The notes under the pieces were generated by a model that worked only from the letters and a program-made list of their open reading frames with translations, was not told where the DNA came from and searched no databases. Positions 51,456-63,449 of a DNA stretch of 64,000 nt are shown piece by piece. Where the stretch lies: positions 1-64,000 of the forward strand of contig NZ_JADQBZ010000004.1 of NCBI RefSeq assembly GCF_016278365.1. Reading direction: 5' to 3'. Each line of letters opens with the position of its first letter. Position 1 is the stretch's first letter. This stretch comes from Methanolobus sp. (GTDB lineage: Archaea; Halobacteriota; Methanosarcinia; Methanosarcinales; Methanosarcinaceae). A program made the position numbers and the translations under genes.

Positions 51456-53225
51456 ATGCGAATAGCCATATTGAACAAGGACAGGTGCCAGCCAAGGCGC
51501 TGCAGTCATGAATGTGAAAAGTACTGTCCCAGGGTAAGGACAGGGGACGAAACCATCGTTTTCCCGGAAGGCGGCGGAAAGCCGGTTATCTCGGAAGAGC
51601 TGTGCGTAGGTTGTGGTATATGTATCAACAGGTGCCCTTTCGATGCTATTATGATTATCGGCCTTCCGGAAGAGCTTAAAGAACCCACTCACAGGTACGG
51701 AGCAAATGCATTTGCGCTCTATGGCCTGCCGGTTCCCCAGGTTGGCAGGGTCACAGGTATCCTGGGTCCTAACGGCATCGGAAAAAGTACTGCCGTGCAG
51801 ATACTCTCAGGTGCCCTTATACCCAATTTCGGCGATGGTGTAGGTAACTGGGAAAATGTGCTTCAGCACTACGCAGGCACAGCCCTGCATGACTACTTCA
51901 GTGATGTGGCTGACGGCAATACAAAGGTCTCCCAGAAACCTCAGTATGTGGATATGATCCCCAAGGCTTTTAAGGGGAAAGCCAGCGAGTTGCTTGACAG
52001 GACTGACGAGAGAGGTATTCTTGGGGAACTGATAGAAAAGCTTGGCCTGTCTCCTGTTATTGACAGGAATATATCCGAGCTTAGTGGAGGAGAACTCCAG
52101 AGAGTAGCTATTGCAGCATGTGCTGCAAGGGATGCTGACTTCTATTTCTTTGATGAGATCAGTCCATATCTTGACATCTACCAGCGCATTAATTCCGCCC
52201 AGCTTATCCAGGAGATAGCCAAAGATAAAGCGGTGCTTGTTGTCGAGCACGACCTGGCTATCCTTGACATGCTTGCGGATGTTGTACATGTGGCATACGG
52301 TCAGCCGGGAGCGTATGGTGTCATGACCTATCCAAAAGGTGTGCGCATTGCAATAAACCAGTATCTGAAGGGTTACCTTCCCGAAGAGAACGTGCGTATC
52401 AGGCCCGATGCCATAAAGTTTGAGGTTCATCCCCCGCGTGTAGGATCAGATATTGCGACTCTTGTTGATTACGATAGCTTCTCCAAGAAATACGGGAATG
52501 GGTTCTCTCTTGAGACCGATGGTGGCTCCCTGAAGCAGGGTGAAGTTCTCGGCATAGTGGGACCCAACGGTATCGGTAAGTCCACTTTTGTAAAGATACT
52601 GGCCGGAGAGGTGGAACCGGATGAAGGCAAACTGGACCTGGATATCACTATTTCCTATAAGCCTCAATACATCAAGCCTGATGTTTCCATGCAGGTGCAG
52701 TACTTCCTGCGTGGAATCTCCCGTAAGTTCGATACCAGCTATTTCCAGTCCGAGGTAGCCAAACCCATGCAGCTTGAGCCCCTGTATGAACGTGACCTTA
52801 CGGACCTCAGTGGCGGAGAGCTCCAGAGGGTGGCAATCGCTGCCTGCCTGTGCAGGGATGCTGATATGTATATCCTTGACGAACCAAGCGCCCACCTTGA
52901 TGTCGAACAGCGTTCCATGACCACAAGAGTGATCAAGAGATTTGCCGAGAACAGCGGCAAGACCGCAATGGTGGTCGACCACGATATCTACATGATAGAC
53001 ATGCTTAGCGAACGTTTGATTGTCTTTGAAGGAGAGCCTGCAGTTCGCGGTAAAGCACATCGCCCCTCCAGCATGCAGGATGGTATGAACAAATTCCTGG
53101 CTAACCTGCACATCACATTCAGGCGTGATGAGGATACTTCCCGGCCCAGAGTCAACAAGCCCGATTCAAGGCTTGACAGGGAACAGAAGGCCAGCGGGGA
53201 ATATTACTATCATAACCTCGAGTAA
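51456..53225 (+). CDS. abcE1: Ribosome-recycling ATPase ABCE1/RLI
   Basis: 589 residues. Two [4Fe-4S] clusters are encoded at the N-terminus (CQPRRCSHECEKYCP and CVGCGICINRCPF), followed by two ABC domains with Walker A GPNGIGKST (near 105 and 370), signatures LSGGELQRVAIA (both halves) and Walker B regions (FFDEISPYLD; ILDEPSAHLD), with the hinge between. ABCE1 splits post-termination ribosomes into subunits; essential in archaea. Full length and intact. Confidence 0.97.
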   Translation: MRIAILNKDRCQPRRCSHECEKYCPRVRTGDETIVFPEGGGKPVISEELCVGCGICINRCPFDAIMIIGLPEELKEPTHRYGANAFALYGLPVPQVGRVTGILGPNGIGKSTAVQILSGALIPNFGDGVGNWENVLQHYAGTALHDYFSDVADGNTKVSQKPQYVDMIPKAFKGKASELLDRTDERGILGELIEKLGLSPVIDRNISELSGGELQRVAIAACAARDADFYFFDEISPYLDIYQRINSAQLIQEIAKDKAVLVVEHDLAILDMLADVVHVAYGQPGAYGVMTYPKGVRIAINQYLKGYLPEENVRIRPDAIKFEVHPPRVGSDIATLVDYDSFSKKYGNGFSLETDGGSLKQGEVLGIVGPNGIGKSTFVKILAGEVEPDEGKLDLDITISYKPQYIKPDVSMQVQYFLRGISRKFDTSYFQSEVAKPMQLEPLYERDLTDLSGGELQRVAIAACLCRDADMYILDEPSAHLDVEQRSMTTRVIKRFAENSGKTAMVVDHDIYMIDMLSERLIVFEGEPAVRGKAHRPSSMQDGMNKFLANLHITFRRDEDTSRPRVNKPDSRLDREQKASGEYYYHNLE

Positions 53226-53389: not shown

Positions 53390-53674
53390 ATGTTATCAAA
53401 GATACCTGTGGACCTGTCCAAGGTCGATAAGAAGGACTTAAATCTGGAGATACTGAGGGCGGCAATCATTGCCGAGCTGGATGCTATCAATCTCTATGAA
53501 CAAATGGCAGGTCTAACCGACAACGATGAAGTGAAAAGAGTCCTTATGGATGTTGCACTTGAAGAGAAGACCCATGTGGGCGAATTCCAGACTTTACTGT
53601 TGAGGGCTGATGAGCAGCAGAAAGAGGAACTCAAGGCCGGGGAAAAAGAAGTCGATGAGGAGCTCTCAAAGTAA
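53390..53674 (+). CDS. Encapsulated-ferritin-like (EncFtn) protein, first copy
   Basis: A 94-residue two-helix ferritin-like protein. The iron ligands of the EncFtn family are in place: Glu29 (AAIIAELDAINLYEQMA), Glu59 and His62 (ALEEKTHVGEF). EncFtn proteins assemble into ring decamers that oxidise iron inside encapsulin shells (family knowledge). The segment is strikingly like the ferritin part fused to some archaeal encapsulins. The acidic, Lys-rich C-tail (GEKEVDEELSK) could be linker or targeting sequence. TATA-like ATATATAAG lies about 115 bases upstream. No encapsulin gene is in the window. Confidence 0.82.
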   Translation: MLSKIPVDLSKVDKKDLNLEILRAAIIAELDAINLYEQMAGLTDNDEVKRVLMDVALEEKTHVGEFQTLLLRADEQQKEELKAGEKEVDEELSK

Positions 53675-53688
53675 TCCAGGGGGTAAGC

Positions 53689-53964
53689 ATGTTATCAGAG
53701 ATACCTATCAACCTGCAGATGGTGAATAAAAAGGACCTTGATAAGGAGATAATGAGGGCTGCCATGATTGCGGAACTGGATGCTGTGAACCTGTACGAAT
53801 CCATGGCTGCACTTACTGACAGTGAGGATCTTAAAGTGATCCTACTGGATGTCGCTAAAGAGGAAAAGGTGCATGTAGCGATGTTCCAGACCGTGCTCAT
53901 GGAAGTTGACAGGGAATACATGAAGATCATGGCAGATTACGCTCTTGGGAAAGGGAGAATGTAA
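53689..53964 (+). CDS. Encapsulated-ferritin-like (EncFtn) protein, second copy
   Basis: A 91-residue paralogue of the preceding gene, 14 bases downstream, with the same ligands (Glu29 in MIAELDAVNLYESMA; Glu59, His62 in KEEKVHVAMF). The C-terminus differs: it has a longer helix (VDREYMKIMADYALGKGRM) and no acidic tail, so the two subunits may play distinct roles, for example a mixed ring. GGGGG-type ribosome site present. Very likely cotranscribed with the first copy. Confidence 0.82.
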   Translation: MLSEIPINLQMVNKKDLDKEIMRAAMIAELDAVNLYESMAALTDSEDLKVILLDVAKEEKVHVAMFQTVLMEVDREYMKIMADYALGKGRM

Positions 53965-54380: not shown

Positions 54381-54725
54381 TCATTTGCCTGATGTTCCTG
54401 AAACGTTTCCTTCTGCTTTTTTTCTCTTCCCGATTGTAAGGTACCAGGTAAGGAATTCTGTATAGAGGATGATTCCTGCCAGTGTGGACCAGAGCGTAAG
54501 CAGTATATGGAAATTATTCACAGGTACCAATCCCCCGGCAAAAAGGAAGTGCCTGTATGAAAGAAAGGCTAATGATGTGCCAGGCATAATGATGACCGCA
54601 AGGACAGGCACAGCTACCAGGACCAGCATCGCCAGCCGGGATGATATTTTTATCAGTATGAAAAGCACGGTGAGTGCAAAAGTGACAAAAAGCATCGCAC
54701 ACCCTATAAAAGCCAGAATCTCCAT
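54381..54725 (-). CDS. Three-TM membrane protein of unknown function
   Basis: A 114-residue hydrophobic protein with membrane segments at about 3-24, 30-52 and 78-98 and a basic C-terminus (IGKRKKAEGNVSGTSGK). No family is recognised. It is the fourth gene of the envelope operon, 23 bases after the DUF11-type gene, and is probably a small accessory subunit of that system. Confidence 0.55.
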   Translation of the reverse strand: MEILAFIGCAMLFVTFALTVLFILIKISSRLAMLVLVAVPVLAVIIMPGTSLAFLSYRHFLFAGGLVPVNNFHILLTLWSTLAGIILYTEFLTWYLTIGKRKKAEGNVSGTSGK

Positions 54726-54748: not shown

Positions 54749-56590
54749 TTATCTGTAAACACCCCTGATAGCTAGATACATAAGAGCCGGTATGATCGCA
54801 AGCAATGAGAACAGGGTGATGAAAGCAGATAGCAGAAAGCCGGCAGCCTCAATGCGTGTCAGCTCAGTATTTCCAATGTCAGGAGTTTCGCCGGTTTGTA
54901 CATTTACCGAACCCGGCTTTGCGTCAGTGCTTATCTGATTATGTTCAGTAGTGAGTACATCATCAATGTAGATCACAGGAGTATCTGAAACTGCGCTGTA
55001 CTGTTTTCCCTCCAGATCAGTGTAATCTGCCCTGGCAGCAGGTAACATGACGGTTCCGGCACTTATGGTCTTTACAACATAGCTGATCTTCTTTGATGCA
55101 CCTGCTTCAATGTCTCCTTCCCATAAGGGCTGGCCTGAAACCAAGGAAAGCCCCTCGGGAACACTATCCGTAAGTGTTATACGGACATTGCTATTTCCTG
55201 CATTCACTGCACTTACAACTATCTCGGTCATCTCTCCGGTATACAGGTAGCTGGAAACAATACTCTTCTCAATAATGACTTTCGAGCCTCTGACAATGAA
55301 AGCATCCGTAAAGGGGCTGGATTCCACAATATATGTTTCTCCTCCATCTTTCCACTGAGCCGTCCCAGGCTTGAAGGTGAAACTGCCTGCTTCAGTTGGC
55401 TTTGCAGTGTAGCTGATCTCTTTTGTAGCACCTGCATCAAGCAACATTGTCCATTCCGTCCCCTCCACGCCTTCAGGGATCATTGATGATGGCAGTTCGT
55501 CCCGTACTTCCAGAGTTGTCCTGTAGCCTGCCGTGTTCTTAAGTGTGAGCGTTATCATGAAATGCCCGTCAGTTCCCATTTCAGTGTCCTTTGGGGAGTT
55601 CCTGACAGCTTCCACTTTTTTCTCGATAGAGATGTATGGCCTGACCTGCACTTCAAAAGAAGCTGGCTCTGAGTATTCGTTACCCATGTAATCATACCCT
55701 GTAACCTGGGACTCTATCAGTATGTTTCTGGTGACAGGAGTTACGGGAGTTCTGACAGGCACAATGAACTTCTTCACTTTCAGCGGATCAAGAACTGCCT
55801 GCTGGAGGTGTGGTTCCCCAACCATTCCTGCTGAGGAACCGGTGGTCATGGTAATGCCATGCAGTGGAATAGTGCCGCTATTGGTGAGAGTTAATACGTA
55901 CGATATATCCTCATTTGAACCATAGACTATCTTATCTGTCAGGATATCGACTGTTAATGCGGGCGCACCCGGCCTGAAAGTCTCAATGGATACATCTCTG
56001 GTGTTTGGATTGATATAGATAACACGGATCATGAAATCACCAGCAAATTTCCTGTAGCTGCCCGACTGGTATGTTTCTTCAAAAACACCATTCTTTCCTT
56101 CTATGCTGACAAGAGCGCCGCTCTCACCAACCTCTTTGAGTTTCACACGGTAACTGCCATCTTCCAGTGTGTCACCGACTTTCATGTTTGTTTTCGGCAC
56201 GCTTGTGACCCAGACCCTTTCCGATTTCTGTTTATATGTTTCCAGTGAAACAATGCCCGAGTTAATACCAAGGACATTGATCTTCAATTCATTATCATAG
56301 ATCTGCTCACTGTTTGCAGAGGCATCCGTAAAGAACGATCTTTTGAAGTCCCTGTTGTGGTAAACAAGAACTATGGCAGAAGGTTCAGCACTATCCATAT
56401 CTACAGAATGTACTTTGACTGTGAATCCTTCAAGTTCCGCTCTGTTCCCGGCAGCAAGTTCGTAGGCACCCTGGAATATCCATAGGCTCTCATCCTGGAT
56501 ATCGTAGGCACTGACAGGGTATACTAAAGCGGGTAGCAGTGTTATCGCAAAGATCAGGACCGTCAGTGTTCTCACAGCCATTTGGAGCAT
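54749..56590 (-). CDS. Secreted, C-terminally anchored protein with DUF11-type repeats
   Basis: A 613-residue surface protein. A signal peptide covers about 1-28 (ending PVSAYD). Residues 30-200 are an S-layer-like beta region with a strand motif repeated twice (VSLETYKQK; VSIETFRPG). At least three DUF11/CARDB-like beta domains follow (VYGSNEDISYVLTLTNSGTI; MITLTLKNTAGYRTTLEVRD; MTEIVVSAVNAGNSNVRITL). One membrane helix near 585-607 with a short basic tail anchors it. It lies directly downstream of two ABC-2 permeases in one operon, so it may be exported with them or form the outer part of the complex. Confidence 0.7.
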   Translation of the reverse strand: MLQMAVRTLTVLIFAITLLPALVYPVSAYDIQDESLWIFQGAYELAAGNRAELEGFTVKVHSVDMDSAEPSAIVLVYHNRDFKRSFFTDASANSEQIYDNELKINVLGINSGIVSLETYKQKSERVWVTSVPKTNMKVGDTLEDGSYRVKLKEVGESGALVSIEGKNGVFEETYQSGSYRKFAGDFMIRVIYINPNTRDVSIETFRPGAPALTVDILTDKIVYGSNEDISYVLTLTNSGTIPLHGITMTTGSSAGMVGEPHLQQAVLDPLKVKKFIVPVRTPVTPVTRNILIESQVTGYDYMGNEYSEPASFEVQVRPYISIEKKVEAVRNSPKDTEMGTDGHFMITLTLKNTAGYRTTLEVRDELPSSMIPEGVEGTEWTMLLDAGATKEISYTAKPTEAGSFTFKPGTAQWKDGGETYIVESSPFTDAFIVRGSKVIIEKSIVSSYLYTGEMTEIVVSAVNAGNSNVRITLTDSVPEGLSLVSGQPLWEGDIEAGASKKISYVVKTISAGTVMLPAARADYTDLEGKQYSAVSDTPVIYIDDVLTTEHNQISTDAKPGSVNVQTGETPDIGNTELTRIEAAGFLLSAFITLFSLLAIIPALMYLAIRGVYR

Positions 56591-56607: not shown

Positions 56608-57717
56608 TTAATTGTTTTTATATGTCTTTTTCACCGTGGCAATTGTAAGCATGCACAGCGCCACAGCCACTAGTGTATAGAGGCCAATCCAGAGGGCTGA
56701 CTCGGATGACCCTATACTATTGATAGAGAGTCTTGTTACAAGATTGAGCGGTGAATTTGTGAACAGATAGGAGGCCATGAACAGGAAAATGAGTACCATG
56801 GAATACAGGAGCTGAGCAACGCCTCTCTCCTTGAAAATAACAGATATGATACTACTCGTAAGGACAAGTATCAGCCCGATAAGCGTGACCACGAACAGTA
56901 TCGTAAAGTAATTCATGATGGATATCCTGTTCATACTCAGCAGCAACATCCAGGCAAGAGCCTGCAGGGGTACAATAGCGGCCGCAACAAGCACCTTCCC
57001 ACTCACGATCTCCAGCATAGACGCGGGAGTGACAAGCAGTAATTCCATTGTCTTCCTTTCGAACTCCTCGGTAATGAAGTCAATAACAAGCCCTCCTGAA
57101 ATGAATGCTGGTGTAAATACCAGTAGTGGAAGCAGTGCAACGTAAATGAACTCGAAATAAGTGGATGAGGTCTTTATACCTCTTTTGTTGATATTGATCT
57201 CTATAGGGGAATATCCCGGCAAACGCTGGGTCCTTATGTCACGCACATGCTGCTCGAACTTCTCAAGTGGCTCTTTTAACTGAAGTGATATCAGAGTAGC
57301 CTTAATTTCCGATTTGGGAAGGTATATCTCCACGTTCAGTATATCCGTCCCTTCTGAGGGGCCTGGAGGAGCTATTAAGATGGCATCGACCCTGTGTTCA
57401 TAGAAATCCCCGTAAGCAGGTGTCAGGTCACTGTACAAACGGGTATTGACCTTACTTTCCTGAAGCAGCTTGTAAAGTTCATTTTCTTCAGTTCCGACAA
57501 CTGCAACGCTTATACCTTGCATCTCTATATCACCCATGATCGTGGGATCGTAGAACGAAGTGAGCCCTATGACAAGAAATGTTGAGAATGATGCTATGAA
57601 AAGCTGGATCAGTACGGAAAGTATGAACGTCTTCTCACGCATGAGCTCGCCTACTTCCTTTTTAGCGATACTCCTTACTTTTCCGCAATATCTTGGACGC
57701 TTAGACAAAAAGGACAC
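56608..57717 (-). CDS. ABC-2 permease with large extracytoplasmic loop (NatB/YhaP-like)
   Basis: A 369-residue permease. One membrane helix near 33-52, then an extracytoplasmic loop of about 130 residues, and five helices from about 185 to 365, with FITEEFERKTMELLLVTPASMLEIVSGK, the ABC-2 signature stretch, near 217-245. It overlaps the preceding permease gene by 17 bases. A cognate ATPase is not in this operon, but one is encoded divergently at 60.6 kb. Confidence 0.82.
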   Translation of the reverse strand: MSFLSKRPRYCGKVRSIAKKEVGELMREKTFILSVLIQLFIASFSTFLVIGLTSFYDPTIMGDIEMQGISVAVVGTEENELYKLLQESKVNTRLYSDLTPAYGDFYEHRVDAILIAPPGPSEGTDILNVEIYLPKSEIKATLISLQLKEPLEKFEQHVRDIRTQRLPGYSPIEININKRGIKTSSTYFEFIYVALLPLLVFTPAFISGGLVIDFITEEFERKTMELLLVTPASMLEIVSGKVLVAAAIVPLQALAWMLLLSMNRISIMNYFTILFVVTLIGLILVLTSSIISVIFKERGVAQLLYSMVLIFLFMASYLFTNSPLNLVTRLSINSIGSSESALWIGLYTLVAVALCMLTIATVKKTYKNN

Positions 57718-59515
57718 CTCTGAGAATGAAAAGATTGTATGCGCTATGGACCACTGTTGCCAGTATCACTGAAAGCAGATATCTCCTGGTGCCGAACCTG
57801 TACATTACTATCGAACTGACAGCTGCAGTCGAGATGTGCAGCAGGAGAGGTATTAACAGGAGTGTACCCATTGTCATCACTGCCCCGAATGCGGAACTTG
57901 CAATGGGTGCCAGCGTAAGGACAGCAACTGCCTTTTCTCCGGCAAAGAAGCCTGTACCTGAAAGGACAGCAAGCCTGAGAGCGTTTCTCATAGTTACCAG
58001 CTGAAGCTTTCTTTTGAAGATTGTGTATATTCCGGCTGATTTGACCAGTTCTTCTGCCATCGCAGAAAGTGCTATCATCACGATGACAGAATGCGGAGCC
58101 GGCAGGTTGAACAGCATGACGATCAACATTAGTTGCGTCATGTAAACGAACGGGATGAAGATAATGCTCAGCAGGAAAACAGAACCGTATGGGTTCAAAA
58201 GGAATATTTCCAGACAATCTGTTATCTTTTCTGATACTGCTTTCTGTGTGAAGAGGTCCTCTTCCCTGTATATATAGGTCCCGAATAAAAAGGCGGAAAA
58301 CGCGACAAAATAGAATGGCAGGGTTGAGAACAGATATGTGCCGATCTGCAGGGTCTCGCCTTCTATAAGGCGAACTATAAGGGTGATCGGGGAGATAGAA
58401 CTGATGGCGTGGATATTTGTAAACATCGCCGGGAAGAAGAGGTATCCGGAGATTATCACTGACAGGAAGACACTTGTGAAGGTCAGTTCCTTGAAGCTCC
58501 TTGAAAGTATGGCGCCGAAAAATGAGAGCGCGAAGAACAGAAGCACAACCGGTAGTATTGCTGCAAGGATCAGTAGTGAGCTCTGTGCTGTTCTTATGTC
58601 CGCCGGGATGCCCATTATATATAGAGTGATAACAGCCTGAATGAGTAGAGTAACGAGGACGTAGGGTAATGTTTTGCCGATTACGATCTCTCTGCTGGAC
58701 AGAGGTGCGGCAAGTATGAGCTCTCCTTTTTTATTAGTGCGCTCATCCATGATACTTGTGGAATAGAACTGCGAGATGAAATATATAGGGAATATGAACA
58801 GGAAAGCATACAGTATCGCCGTGAATGGAATAGGCGGTGAAAAGAAAGATGGCGTAGAGAGCGTCTGCTTCTGGAAGAATGCCCTTCCTTTGTAATCGTC
58901 AAGATCATTGATGTCCTCCGGAATCGTGAATGAGGAACCGGCATTAAGGTATTCTTGTGTTATTTCTCCTGCAGGGTAACCTTGATGCGATCGATCATTG
59001 GTGCTGCTTTCCACGCCCGTCTCTAAGCTGCGGGCAGCATTCCGGGCACTCAGTAGCTGGTAGTTTTGGGGCCTCTCTATATCATGTACAGTGACCCACA
59101 CCGGATGGCTGTTGTTAATATCATCGTAGGAAGTAAGTACGATCTCACGATATTCCTTGACCGTATTCTCCAGTGCACTTCCGGCAGCCGCTGACTTGTA
59201 ACTGTCTCCCAGATATACGTTATTACCGATAATTACAAAATCTGCTCCGTAAAGGTAAAACTCTGTAGCCTCAAATACCGTGACAGGCAGATAACTGAAT
59301 CTCTGGTCACTTTCAAGTATGGGGCGAAGTGCAGGTTCTGCTGATGCAGCAGTGTATATCTTCTGGTTCATACTCATCTGTGTCTGTGCGGCTGCGAAAG
59401 ATGCTGCTATGACCAGTGCCAGAGTAAGTGTCAGCAATATGGCTGACCTTGAATCGAATTTGAGTTTGGACCTGAAAAACTCCCATTTTGCTATCGTTAA
59501 CCATCCGGACATCAC
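57701..59515 (-). CDS. ABC-2 permease fused to a PrsW-type intramembrane protease domain
   Basis: A 604-residue fusion. Residues 1-430 form an ABC-2 permease: one helix near 25-45, a long extracytoplasmic loop (45-235), then several helices with TSIMDERTNKKGELILAAPLSSREIVIGK near 250-278. Residues 450-604 add about six helices with the PrsW motif set: AEELVK (Glu488-489), FFAGEKA (Glu527), LLHIST (His560) and VVHSAYN (His590, Asn594). All expected catalytic residues are present. The protein presumably couples transport to membrane proteolysis; this is inference. First gene of the envelope operon; GTG or the adjacent ATG starts it. Confidence 0.8.
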   Translation of the reverse strand: MMSGWLTIAKWEFFRSKLKFDSRSAILLTLTLALVIAASFAAAQTQMSMNQKIYTAASAEPALRPILESDQRFSYLPVTVFEATEFYLYGADFVIIGNNVYLGDSYKSAAAGSALENTVKEYREIVLTSYDDINNSHPVWVTVHDIERPQNYQLLSARNAARSLETGVESSTNDRSHQGYPAGEITQEYLNAGSSFTIPEDINDLDDYKGRAFFQKQTLSTPSFFSPPIPFTAILYAFLFIFPIYFISQFYSTSIMDERTNKKGELILAAPLSSREIVIGKTLPYVLVTLLIQAVITLYIMGIPADIRTAQSSLLILAAILPVVLLFFALSFFGAILSRSFKELTFTSVFLSVIISGYLFFPAMFTNIHAISSISPITLIVRLIEGETLQIGTYLFSTLPFYFVAFSAFLFGTYIYREEDLFTQKAVSEKITDCLEIFLLNPYGSVFLLSIIFIPFVYMTQLMLIVMLFNLPAPHSVIVMIALSAMAEELVKSAGIYTIFKRKLQLVTMRNALRLAVLSGTGFFAGEKAVAVLTLAPIASSAFGAVMTMGTLLLIPLLLHISTAAVSSIVMYRFGTRRYLLSVILATVVHSAYNLFILRGVLFV

Positions 59516-59643: not shown

Positions 59644-60486
59644 ATGATAAACATCCCAATACTCTTATCCAATAACATTCCCTACACAAACCTTCCGATC
59701 TCACAGTTTCTGTTCGCTCTTTTTATTCTTGCTGCCGGTATTGTGGTTGCAGGAATCCTTTCCCAGGCTTTTCGCAGGGGTCTGAAAACTGCAAAACTTC
59801 CGCAACTTATCGCAGAATTTCTTGTACGGTTCATGCGCATACTGCTGTATGTAGCGGTACTGCTTGCCTTCATCAGTGCACTGGGGGTCGATGTTAGTGC
59901 TGTCGTCATTGGCCTTTCCGCGATTATCGGATTGGTGCTTGGTTTTGGCATGCAGGACTCCCTGAACAATGTGGCTGCAGGTGTGTGGATAGCCTCCCTC
60001 AGGCCCATGGACAAGGGAGAATTCGTCACTATCAATAGTTTCTCAGGCACTGTACATGCTGTAGGTATCATGGCTACTGAGATCCTTACCCCGGACAACC
60101 AGTTTATTACTATACCAAACAAGCTTGTCTGGGGGAGTCCCATAATAAATGCCACGCGCATGCCCATACGCAGGGTCAGTGTTGATGTTGGGATTAGTTA
60201 TGGAACAGATATTGGCAGGGCTGTCAACGTCGCCCTTGAACTGATAAAGGGTCACCCCAAGGTGCTCGGGACACCAGCTCCTGCTGTGGTCACCACCGAA
60301 CTTGCAGATTCTTCTGTTAACCTGCAGCTTCGCGCATGGACAAATACTCCTGACCTCTGGTCTGTCAAGGATGACCTGACCATCGCTATCTATGACGCTT
60401 TCAACAGGGAGGGCATAAACATCCCGTTCCCGCAGATGGATGTTTATATCAGGAGCAGTTCCGGCAGTAAGCAAAGTACTGATTAA
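59644..60486 (+). CDS. Small-conductance mechanosensitive channel (MscS family)
   Basis: A 280-residue MscS: helices at about 20-45, 60-85 and 88-110, the Gly/Ala-rich pore helix IGLSAIIGLVLGFGMQDSLNNVAAGVWI, then the MscS beta domain (DKGEFVTINSFSGTVHAVG; TEILTPDNQFITIPN) and the C-terminal cage domain ending IPFPQMDVYI. It opens on membrane tension and releases solutes. It is divergent from the ABC-2/PrsW operon and followed by a terminator hairpin. Confidence 0.93.
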   Translation: MINIPILLSNNIPYTNLPISQFLFALFILAAGIVVAGILSQAFRRGLKTAKLPQLIAEFLVRFMRILLYVAVLLAFISALGVDVSAVVIGLSAIIGLVLGFGMQDSLNNVAAGVWIASLRPMDKGEFVTINSFSGTVHAVGIMATEILTPDNQFITIPNKLVWGSPIINATRMPIRRVSVDVGISYGTDIGRAVNVALELIKGHPKVLGTPAPAVVTTELADSSVNLQLRAWTNTPDLWSVKDDLTIAIYDAFNREGINIPFPQMDVYIRSSSGSKQSTD

Positions 60487-60500
60487 GGCAAGAGTAAGTC

Positions 60501-60521
60501 ACGGTTGCCACGAGCAACCGT
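60501..60521 (+). terminator. Terminator-like hairpin after mscS
   Basis: ACGGTTGC and GCAACCGT form a perfect eight-base-pair stem with loop CACGA, followed by ATCTCTATTTTTATAAC. The hairpin plus T-run sits 15 bases after the mscS stop. The T/A tract doubles as promoter sequence for the ABC ATPase. Confidence 0.65.
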
Positions 60522-60572
60522 ATCTCTATTTTTATAACATTGCTTATATATAGTGAAGTATATCCTGTTTAT

Positions 60573-61487
60573 GTGGAACAGAATATCATCGAAGTGGAAG
60601 GACTCCGTAAAGAATACGGAGATTTTGTTGCTGTTGAAGACCTCGGTTTCTCTATAGCGAAAGGAGAGATATTTGGAATAGTAGGTCCCAACGGTGCAGG
60701 CAAGACAACCACTTTGAAGATGCTGAGCGGCCTTATCAGGCCAAGCAGAGGCAATATTACGATGAAGGGACTGGACATAGGTCGGGATGCTGTTAAGATC
60801 AAATCCTTCCTGGGTTTTCTTCCTGAAGAGTCACCCCTGTATGAAGGCATGGAAGTTGATGATTATCTGATGTTCTTCGCGGAACTCTATGGCGTCGAAA
60901 AGAATGTCGCCAGGAAAAGGATAAATGACCTGCTTTTTGATCTTTCTCTCAACGCTGACGGCAAGAAGATAGGCGACCTCTCCAAGGGTATGAAGCGCAA
61001 GGTTGCTATCGCCCGCTCACTAATAAATGACCCTGACATCCTGATATATGATGAACCGTCATCAGGCCTTGATCCGATGACCTCCAGATATATCACGGAT
61101 TACGTGCGCTCTCTCAAGGGGGCAGGTAAAACTATCATTTTCAGTGCTCACAATCTGTATCAGGTTGAAAGCCTGTGTGACAATATCCTGATTATGAAAA
61201 ACGGCAAGCTCATTACTCTGGGGACGGCAGCCGATATCCGCGAGGAATTCGGACGGATACAGTACAGGCTTGAGTTCAGGGTGGACAATCTCGATGATTA
61301 TGGCCTTGCCGAACTGAAAAAGACCGATGGTGGCTATGTTGTTATCACCCATGATATCAGCATTATCAACAACACAACCAAATGGGTCGCTTCAAAAGGC
61401 GGGGATATTGTTGAGATGCGTACAATCGTACCTTCGCTGGAAGATATCTTCCTGGAGCTGATGGGAGTCGAACTGTTTGTAGATTGA
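60573..61487 (+). CDS. ABC transporter ATP-binding protein
   Basis: About 304 residues from a GTG start (VEQNIIEVEG); an earlier TTG at 60540 falls in the promoter. Seen: Walker A GPNGAGKTT, Q-loop LGFLPEESPLYEG, signature LSKGMKRKVAIARS, Walker B ILIYDEPSSGLDP, H-loop FSAHN, and a C-terminal regulatory domain. The LSKGM variant of the signature is typical of NatA/YhaQ-type ATPases that pair with NatB-like permeases. It is therefore the likely motor for the permeases encoded on the other side of mscS. Confidence 0.88.
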   Translation: MEQNIIEVEGLRKEYGDFVAVEDLGFSIAKGEIFGIVGPNGAGKTTTLKMLSGLIRPSRGNITMKGLDIGRDAVKIKSFLGFLPEESPLYEGMEVDDYLMFFAELYGVEKNVARKRINDLLFDLSLNADGKKIGDLSKGMKRKVAIARSLINDPDILIYDEPSSGLDPMTSRYITDYVRSLKGAGKTIIFSAHNLYQVESLCDNILIMKNGKLITLGTAADIREEFGRIQYRLEFRVDNLDDYGLAELKKTDGGYVVITHDISIINNTTKWVASKGGDIVEMRTIVPSLEDIFLELMGVELFVD

Positions 61488-61523
61488 TCTGGCAGGCAAA
61501 GCGATTTTTTTATATACTATTTG

Positions 61524-61550
61524 TTGCGTATGCAATTGTTGCAATAGCAA
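61524..61550. promoter_or_regulatory. Double palindrome, probable MarR operator
   Basis: Two copies of TTGC-N4-GCAA (61524-61535 and 61539-61550) lie 15 bases apart, directly after the TATA box (TTTATATAC, 61508-61516) and before the marR start. They share a helical face approximately (1.5 turns apart), fitting two MarR dimers that block transcription of marR-mate. Confidence 0.6.
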
Positions 61551-61566
61551 TAAATAGAGTGGTTAT

Positions 61567-62052
61567 TTGACTTCTTCAGTTAAAAGCACAGATTGCCTCA
61601 CGTCAAGAGGCCACCAGTCAATTGGAAGGGACGCATTTCTGTTCTCCCGGGAAATTCATACTTTCATTGCAAGAGAGATGGAGCCATATGGTATAGGTAG
61701 CGGACAGTTTCCTTTCCTGATACGCCTGCTGCATCACGATGGTATCAGCCAGGAAATACTTATAAGGGACCTGGATTGTGACAGGGCTACAGGTACCAGG
61801 GCAATTAACAAGCTGGAGGAGAACGGATATGTGCGCAGGGAAACTGATCCCCAGGACAAACGCGCCTACAGGGTGTGCCTGACTGATAAGTCCCGGCAAC
61901 TGGGCCCGGTGATCAAGCAAATGTCTGTGCTGATCAATGATATTGTATTTGATGGTTTCACCGGGGAAGAAAAAATCCTTTTTGTTCAGATGATAAAACG
62001 GGCTATAGGTAACATCTCTTGTGAGAACGATATCAGGAAGGCCGGAAAATGA
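61567..62052 (+). CDS. MarR-family transcriptional regulator
   Basis: A 161-residue winged-helix repressor: HHDGISQEILIRDLDCDRATGTRAINKLEENGYVRRETDPQDKRAYRVCLTD, residues about 55-107, the complete DNA-binding region with wing. TTG start with GAGTGGT just upstream. It overlaps the MATE gene by four bases (ATGA), so it very likely controls the efflux pump and itself through the double palindrome in its promoter. Confidence 0.88.
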   Translation: MTSSVKSTDCLTSRGHQSIGRDAFLFSREIHTFIAREMEPYGIGSGQFPFLIRLLHHDGISQEILIRDLDCDRATGTRAINKLEENGYVRRETDPQDKRAYRVCLTDKSRQLGPVIKQMSVLINDIVFDGFTGEEKILFVQMIKRAIGNISCENDIRKAGK

Positions 62053-63449
62053 AAGAGGAAATTGAAGCAGGCACTTCCGGGATGCGGGCAATGGCAGGTG
62101 ATCCCAAAAAAGCCATACTTAAACTGGGCCTGCCGATGATGTTTGCGATGTCCATTCAGACCGTATATAATCTGGTTGACACTTTCTGGGTATCAGGCCT
62201 GGGATCTGATGCACTTGCAGCAGTAGGTTTTGTTTTTCCATTCTTTTTTGCCTCGATAGCCATCTCCACGGGACTTGGCGTAGGCGGAGGCTCGGCCATA
62301 TCCCGCAGGCTTGGTGCAAAAGATAAGCATGGGGCTGATAACGTTGCAGTGCACACGATGATTATAATGCTTATTCTGTCACTGCTGTTCGCTGTCCCTC
62401 TGTTCCTTTTCGCAGAGAGTATCTTCGTTTCCATAGGCGCGGGAAGTACAGCAGATATGGCAACTTCATACGGGAAGATAATCTTTGCAGGTACTTTATT
62501 CATATTCTTCCCCAACGTTGCAAATGCCATCCTCCGCAGCGAGGGAGACACCAAACGAGCCATGAATGCCATGATCCTGGGATCCATACTGAATATCATC
62601 CTGGACCCGATACTGATATACGTGCTTGATATGGGTATAGCCGGTGCTGCATGGGCGACCGTGATCTCTCTTGCTGTCACTGCCGTTCTTATGTCCAACT
62701 GGCTTTTTTTCCGCAAGGACACCTACATATCCTTTGATTTCAAGGACTTCAGCTTTGACAGGAGTATCCTGAAAGACATCTTCAGGGTGGGTTTCCCGGC
62801 ATCTGTCCAGCAATCCTCAATGGCTTTGATGATGCTTGTCATGAACATGATACTGATAACAGTCAGCGACACTGATGGGGTGGCTGTCTATACAGTGGGC
62901 TGGCGCGTTGCTACTATTGCTATCGCTCCTCTGATGGGGATCTCGACAGCTGTTGTTACGATGAGCGGATTTGCGTATGGGGAGCGATCTTACAGTAAGT
63001 TGTCTTCTTCACATCTTTATGCAACAAAGATATCCTTCATTGTGGAAACAGCCATAGCTGCCCTTACTTTCATCCTGGCTCCCCAGATAGCTTATGTTTT
63101 CACAATGTCAGAAAGTGCTTCCCACATCACCGGCGATCTGGTGATATTCATCAGGATCATCTGCCTCTTCTACCCAATGGTCTCTCTTGGAATGCTCTCG
63201 TCATCGCTCTTCCAAGGAATAGGTAAAGGTGTGAATGCACTTATCGCAACTATTCTGCGTGCTGTCATATTGGTTCCACTTTTTGCAGCACTTTTTGCTA
63301 TATACCTCGGACAGGGGCTTGTTGGGATCTGGTGGGGCATAGTGGTCGGTAATGTACTTGGGTCACTTGTGATCTTTATCTGGGCACGGTTGCACGTGGG
63401 GGCCTTGCTAAAGAAGGAGTCTGGTTTTTCAACTGCAGAGCCAGTGTGA
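62049..63449 (+). CDS. MATE-family multidrug efflux transporter
   Basis: A 466-residue protein with twelve membrane helices in two similar halves: GLPMMFAMSIQTVYNLVDTFWVSGLG at the start and DIFRVGFPASVQQSSMALMM at the start of the second half (near 245), both MATE signatures; GLGVGGGSAISRRLGAKDK follows the second helix. It exports cationic drugs in exchange for Na+ or H+. Full length, coupled to the MarR gene. Confidence 0.94.
   Translation: MKEEIEAGTSGMRAMAGDPKKAILKLGLPMMFAMSIQTVYNLVDTFWVSGLGSDALAAVGFVFPFFFASIAISTGLGVGGGSAISRRLGAKDKHGADNVAVHTMIIMLILSLLFAVPLFLFAESIFVSIGAGSTADMATSYGKIIFAGTLFIFFPNVANAILRSEGDTKRAMNAMILGSILNIILDPILIYVLDMGIAGAAWATVISLAVTAVLMSNWLFFRKDTYISFDFKDFSFDRSILKDIFRVGFPASVQQSSMALMMLVMNMILITVSDTDGVAVYTVGWRVATIAIAPLMGISTAVVTMSGFAYGERSYSKLSSSHLYATKISFIVETAIAALTFILAPQIAYVFTMSESASHITGDLVIFIRIICLFYPMVSLGMLSSSLFQGIGKGVNALIATILRAVILVPLFAALFAIYLGQGLVGIWWGIVVGNVLGSLVIFIWARLHVGALLKKESGFSTAEPV

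Follow-up and report, generated by a model that had tools for sequence, protein, structure and literature searches.

The window, a 64,000-nucleotide stretch of DNA from Methanolobus sp., carries on its minus strand a gene encoding an ABC-2 permease joined to a predicted PrsW-type intramembrane protease. The coordinates (57701-59515) are exactly those of the original prediction, and the fusion described there was borne out: the gene is one uninterrupted frame of 604 codons, with a Pfam permease match and the protease motifs in place. The true start is probably the ATG at 59512, one codon inside, which would give a protein of 603 amino acids. This start is favored because the homologues have M-[SAP]-G-W in common and the preceding codon is not conserved; they align from this next ATG, and the annotated GTG start (59512-59515) is probably one codon too early. 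Residues are numbered here from the GTG at 59515. The gene and its parts are:

57701..59515, minus strand: ABC-2 permease/PrsW protease fusion gene, a single ORF of 604 codons from the GTG at 59515
58256..59515, minus strand: ABC-2 permease domain, residues 1-420, six predicted transmembrane (TM) helices (Pfam matches; helices from the model)
58826..59383, minus strand: predicted external loop between TM1 and TM2, residues about 45-230 (predicted helix pattern, alignment)
58673..58750, minus strand: segment MDERTNKKGELILAAPLSSREIVIGK, on the cytoplasmic side between TM2 and TM3; a candidate helix for coupling to the ATPase, similar in every orthologue
57704..58228, minus strand: predicted PrsW-type protease domain, residues 430-604, five predicted TM helices (Pfam of orthologues, profile comparison, fold)
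58040..58054, minus strand: PrsW motif 1, EELVK 488-492 (E488, E489, K492), invariant
57932..57946, minus strand: PrsW motif 2, FFAGEK 523-528 (F524, E527, K528), with E527 and K528 invariant
57836..57838, minus strand: PrsW motif 3, H560, invariant
57734..57748, minus strand: PrsW motif 4, HSAYN 590-594 (H590, N594), with H590 invariant and position 594 N or D

Residues 26-401 match PF12679 (39.4 bits) and PF12698 (37.8 bits), both above the cut-off, and PF12698 was matched in all 29 fusion homologues. The helices of the model and the distribution of positive-inside charges together predict 11 TM helices, with the N-terminus and the coupling segment inside and the protease helices as TM7-TM11. 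They also support the large extracytoplasmic loop that had been proposed. This loop has 186 residues, and its portion from 130 to 228 is variable and modeled with very low confidence, as is usual for disordered loops. From general knowledge of ABC-2 exporters, MDERTNKKGELILAAPLSSREIVIGK, between TM2 and TM3, is a candidate for the segment that couples to the ATPase. As read from the order of the helices, the active-site residues would lie between mid-membrane and the outer half of the bilayer.

The C-terminal domain and its family

The four PrsW motifs, with their catalytic residues, are present in the C-terminus where they had been predicted, and they are conserved. All 50 homologues from the same order have E488, E489, K492, F524, E527, H560, H590, and N594 unchanged. 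Among the 31 divergent orthologues that cover the region, E488, E489, K492, E527, K528, H560, and H590 are invariant, whereas F524 is a phenylalanine in 22 and position 594 is an asparagine in 29 and an aspartate in two. The HxxxD form of motif 4 is known to occur in PrsW (PMC4602095). The ordered-motif pattern matched 100 of 1,358 open frames of at least 150 amino acids taken from all loci, and only two of these matches were not homologues of the fusion. The fusion is thus real and its active-site set intact.

When the C-terminal domains of five orthologues were scanned in isolation, PF13367 (PrsW) was matched in all five with 30.8-36.8 bits (cut-off 23.5), and in a genome-level search, fused orthologues of additional families were also above the cut-off. 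The copy of the window scores below it, as do some other copies, and its membership in PrsW therefore rests on the orthologues. Single-sequence searches of Pfam, NCBIfam, and PDB with the window protein gave no PrsW match, its C-terminal 175 residues matching nothing. Likewise, hmmscan of whole proteins reported PF13367 in none of 29 fusions, including the five whose isolated domains exceed the cut-off. Automated annotation therefore probably overlooks the domain systematically. The copy of Haladaptatus salinisoli, which lies in an operon in the order ATPase-fusion-permease, illustrates how the domain is concealed, its RefSeq record naming only an 'ABC transporter permease subunit'.

Profile comparison with hhalign matched the C-terminal domain to standalone PrsW proteins of related archaea with 93-96% probability, but to CPBP proteins of related archaea with 1.5% only, and to MATE, MscS, the second permease of the locus (perm2), and the permease half with less than 1%. 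The fusion protein did not match PF02517 (CPBP/Rce1-like), and the EExxxR motif and the motif-2 histidine are absent from it. The signature is PrsW-like rather than CPBP-like: the basic residue of motif 1 is a lysine in fifth rather than an arginine in sixth position, motif 2 has a glutamate, and there is an extra histidine. Such an extra histidine, in a further core TM helix, separates PrsW from the type II CAAX proteases (PMC4602095). On this sequence evidence, the C-terminal domain is of the PrsW type, not CPBP.

The structure prediction of residues 430-604 that had been proposed as a check gave a supportive result only. Modeled with AlphaFold2 (pLDDT 86), the domain resembled TMEM147 (Z 10.7, 4.5 Å over 154 residues) and APH-1 (Z 10.3, 4.3 Å over 152 residues) best when compared with VIA-align, which also listed Rce1 (4cad; Z 4.3, 3.5 Å over 111 residues) and ABC permeases (Z 5.8 and 7.6). 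Foldseek placed APH-1 first for the C-terminal model, but with an E value of about 1, and returned only weak matches for the full-length model, with an ABC exporter first. TMEM147 has itself been modeled on APH-1 (PMC7505659); APH-1, CPBP, and PrsW are remote homologues, and the TM domains of type II ABC exporters share the APH-1 topology (PMC6588880). Since helical bundles reach comparable Z scores and ABC exporter domains share this topology, the fold match is weak by itself, and the assignment is carried by the sequence. Taken together, the profiles, the Pfam matches of the orthologues, and the fold place the C-terminus in the CPBP/PrsW clan, as had been predicted. We also considered that the PrsW half might be a duplicated ABC TM domain, as suggested by the topology shared in ECOD (PMC6588880), and rejected this, as the two halves compare at 0.8% only.

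Partner genes, distribution, and history

The genes surrounding the fusion are:

56608..57717, minus strand: second ABC-2 permease (perm2), 369 amino acids (PF12698, 65.7 bits)
60540..61487, plus strand, divergent from the fusion: ABC exporter ATPase, DrrA/NatA-like (PF00005, 99.3 bits; PF13732)
59644..60486, plus strand: MscS-type channel gene, between the ATPase and the fusion (PF00924/PF21082); not core
54749..56590, minus strand: DUF11/BatD-like membrane-anchored surface protein, downstream of perm2; a lineage-specific companion, not core
54381..54725, minus strand: small membrane protein of 114 amino acids, after the DUF11 gene; not core

The first 17 bases of perm2 are also the last 17 of the fusion gene, and perm2 adjoins the fusion at every sampled locus whose contig reaches that far. 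All 52 fusion-bearing genomes contain perm2, whereas in the other 48 only one 50-residue perm2 fragment was found. The ATPase is beside or near the fusion at nearly all loci; it is divergent in methanogen-type lineages and co-directional in haloarchaeal-type lineages. Clustering of neighboring frames of at least 70 amino acids detected no neighbor conserved across lineages beyond these three core genes. The fusion gene, perm2, and the ATPase thus form a conserved three-gene module that is kept phylum-wide. No Pfam match to a C39 peptidase domain, as carried by a known class of peptidase-containing ABC transporters, was found in the fusion, perm2, or the ATPase.

The remaining neighbors are of local extent. 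The MscS gene lies between the ATPase and the fusion only in Methanolobus-type and closely related loci, and at most Methanolobus-type loci the genes for MscS, the ABC ATPase, a MarR-type regulator, and a MATE-type efflux protein (59644-63449, plus strand in the window) form a divergent block. The DUF11 protein scores 24.5 bits with PF01345, just below the cut-off of 24.6, and 31 bits with TIGR01451, above its cut-off. Its gene is apparently broken in some relatives, as two overlapping frames (locus L032) or by an in-frame TGA (genome G011). The 114-residue membrane protein had no family match in Pfam or NCBIfam. Two tandem paralogous proteins of 94 and 91 amino acids, ferritin-like by eye (E..H motif), are encoded at 53390-53964, adjoined by an ABCE1/RLI-type ATPase gene (51456-53225).

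The fusion gene was found in each of the 26 further genomes of the genus that were searched, split by contig ends in two of them, and is strongly present in 52 of 100 relatives, the genome of the window included. A scan of all species contigs for close relatives gave named matches in Methanolobus and unclassified Methanosarcinaceae. The original prediction had called for a search for the same fusion in other archaea. A profile built from 29 sequences found it across Halobacteriota, with matches in 205 of 393 genomes, representing 83 of 136 genera; a few of the 205 are weak and possibly generic permeases. The fusion is therefore phylum-wide rather than a local novelty. The strong matches listed in this search extend to the PrsW terminus, indicating that the domain has not been shed. 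At the sensitivity used, the genome of the window showed no second copy of the C-terminal domain. Plasmids contained one haloarchaeal orthologue and no bacterial one.

The divergence of the permease core and that of the PrsW domain are correlated (r = 0.89; none of 999 permutations as high), and in a tree, the sequences group mostly by family, with few exceptions. Both results are consistent with a single fusion event, and the sequences probably descend from one ancient fusion by mainly vertical inheritance. Among the exceptions, the fusion of a genome assigned to family f2 (G084; loci L030/L057) nests within f1, which suggests either horizontal transfer or a mis-binned contig, and two other f2 orthologues (L048 and L050, from G061 and G099) branch with the haloarchaeal-type group rather than with their own order.

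Proposed function and comparison with known systems

We favor the reading that the locus encodes a heterodimeric ABC-2 exporter with a built-in PrsW-type protease, which would cut membrane-embedded proteins or peptides and help to expel the products; we give this proposal about an even chance of being right. The permease of the fusion would form one half of the exporter and perm2 the other, powered by the ATPase encoded at 60540-61487. The protease domain would be located beside the transport pathway and would cleave proteins or peptides that are anchored in the membrane, probably within its outer half. Driven by ATP hydrolysis, the exporter would then extract the hydrophobic cleavage product from the membrane and release it on the outside, which would keep the protease from being clogged by its own products. 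Intramembrane cutting and outward pumping are thus probably performed by one machine, and it is reasonable to suppose that cleavage is coupled to transport, because both halves have been retained and the pairing with a second permease is obligate. More tentatively, we envisage an ancient machine for membrane-protein clearance in Halobacteriota, a protease-exporter that uses ATP hydrolysis to pull intramembrane cleavage products from the bilayer and that databases name 'ABC transporter permease subunit'.

A different possibility, which we think improbable, is that the system matures and exports a specific cargo, PrsW removing the leader or the anchor of a secreted peptide or surface protein and the ABC half exporting it. 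This would liken it to the peptidase-containing bacteriocin exporters; CPBP relatives are putative bacteriocin-processing enzymes (PMC4602095), and a role in processing and extruding the toxins to which it is fused has been suggested for PrsW (PMC3482391). In part of the Methanosarcinaceae, the operon even includes a membrane-anchored candidate, the DUF11 protein, which the original prediction had put forward as substrate. Its distribution disfavors this role. The gene is found behind perm2 in Methanolobus and in part of the other Methanosarcinaceae but is missing beside many orthologues. In two fusion-bearing genomes (G029 and G042), it and the fusion are on separate contigs, and genomes without the fusion (G028, G030, G041, G043, G052, and G060) contain full-length relatives. 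The DUF11 protein therefore cannot be the general substrate, and patchy adjacency together with presence without the fusion argues against a dedicated one; it may be a local partner. Furthermore, no precursor gene, among the clustered frames of at least 70 amino acids, travels with the module across lineages, and conservation across the phylum fits a housekeeping function better than the handling of a specific cargo.

The module could also be an ordinary efflux pump for small molecules or ions, with PrsW as a sensor of membrane stress that controls the pump, or as a signaling protease that cleaves a regulator, in either case without handling the cargo. The ATPase is DrrA/NatA-like, the PrsW of B. 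subtilis is a stress-signaling protease (PMC9263693, PMC4602095), and genes for a MarR-type regulator and a MATE-type efflux protein adjoin the ATPase in Methanolobus. Yet, these two genes are not conserved beyond part of the Methanosarcinaceae, and the locus has no regulator that is conserved phylum-wide, making this explanation unlikely too. Less likely still, the C-terminal domain might be a PrsW/APH-1-like scaffold devoid of protease activity, comparable to APH-1 in gamma-secretase. The top fold matches, APH-1 and TMEM147, are indeed subunits of larger complexes. However, the full catalytic set (EExxK, the motif-2 glutamate, and both histidines) is kept without exception in the sequences examined, which disfavors an inactive scaffold, since this would have no need of such residues. 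Finally, chance motifs, or an ORF or assembly artifact uniting two genes, can be dismissed, as we found nothing in support, the ordered pattern arose in only one of 20,000 shuffles of the whole protein and in none of 20,000 of the C-terminus, and the same fusion recurs across the phylum with a frame free of stops in the listed orthologues.

If the protease-exporter reading is correct, the fusion would bear on a more general problem. Intramembrane proteases yield hydrophobic fragments, the cellular removal of which is poorly known, the Ecs/RasP system providing only a genetic hint. A natural and obligate fusion of protease and exporter would make fragment removal directly testable in a genetically tractable haloarchaeon.

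With the PrsW family (PF13367, MEROPS M82; B. subtilis PrsW), the C-terminal domain has in common the EExxK, F..E, H, and HxxxN/D motifs, in this order, and the arrangement of the core TM helices. It differs in having only five TM helices, placed behind an ABC permease, instead of about eight, and in its F-x-G-E-K form of motif 2, unlike that of the PrsW family. PrsW is known as a fused module, being joined to toxins, PilZ, and FHA domains, but the architectures covered by that description (PMC3482391) do not include an ABC permease. As a kind, chains that combine an ABC permease with an intramembrane protease are already known: in NF041647 (ABC permease/CPBP, NCBIfam), a NatB-type permease likewise precedes an intramembrane protease belonging to the CPBP/PrsW superfamily. 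Its protease half is CPBP, whereas that of the present fusion is PrsW, which makes the latter a variant. None of 60 genomes exceeded the NF041647 cut-off (435 bits over both halves), and the fusion protein was unmatched; in the genomes examined, the matches to this family fall on perm2 or on separate CPBP proteins, not on the fusion. In the openly accessible literature on PrsW or CPBP together with ABC transporters or permeases, we found no description of the PrsW version, of its phylum-wide conservation, or of its fixed partners. The ABC-2 exporters of the DrrAB-NatAB type (PF12698, TIGR01188) share with the system the permease family, the coupling segment, a DrrA-like ATPase, and a second permease, but in the fusion system one permease half carries an intramembrane protease.

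A functional parallel may be EcsAB of Bacillus: intramembrane proteolysis that depends on RasP requires this ABC transporter, and a role in cleaning the membrane of peptides has been proposed for it (PMC2996298). In both cases an ABC transporter appears functionally linked with an intramembrane protease. The Bacillus transporter and RasP are separate proteins, however, and RasP lies outside the PrsW family, whereas the fusion unites a PrsW-type domain with the permease in a single chain. By analogy, the fusion would hard-wire the connection that has been proposed for EcsAB and RasP.
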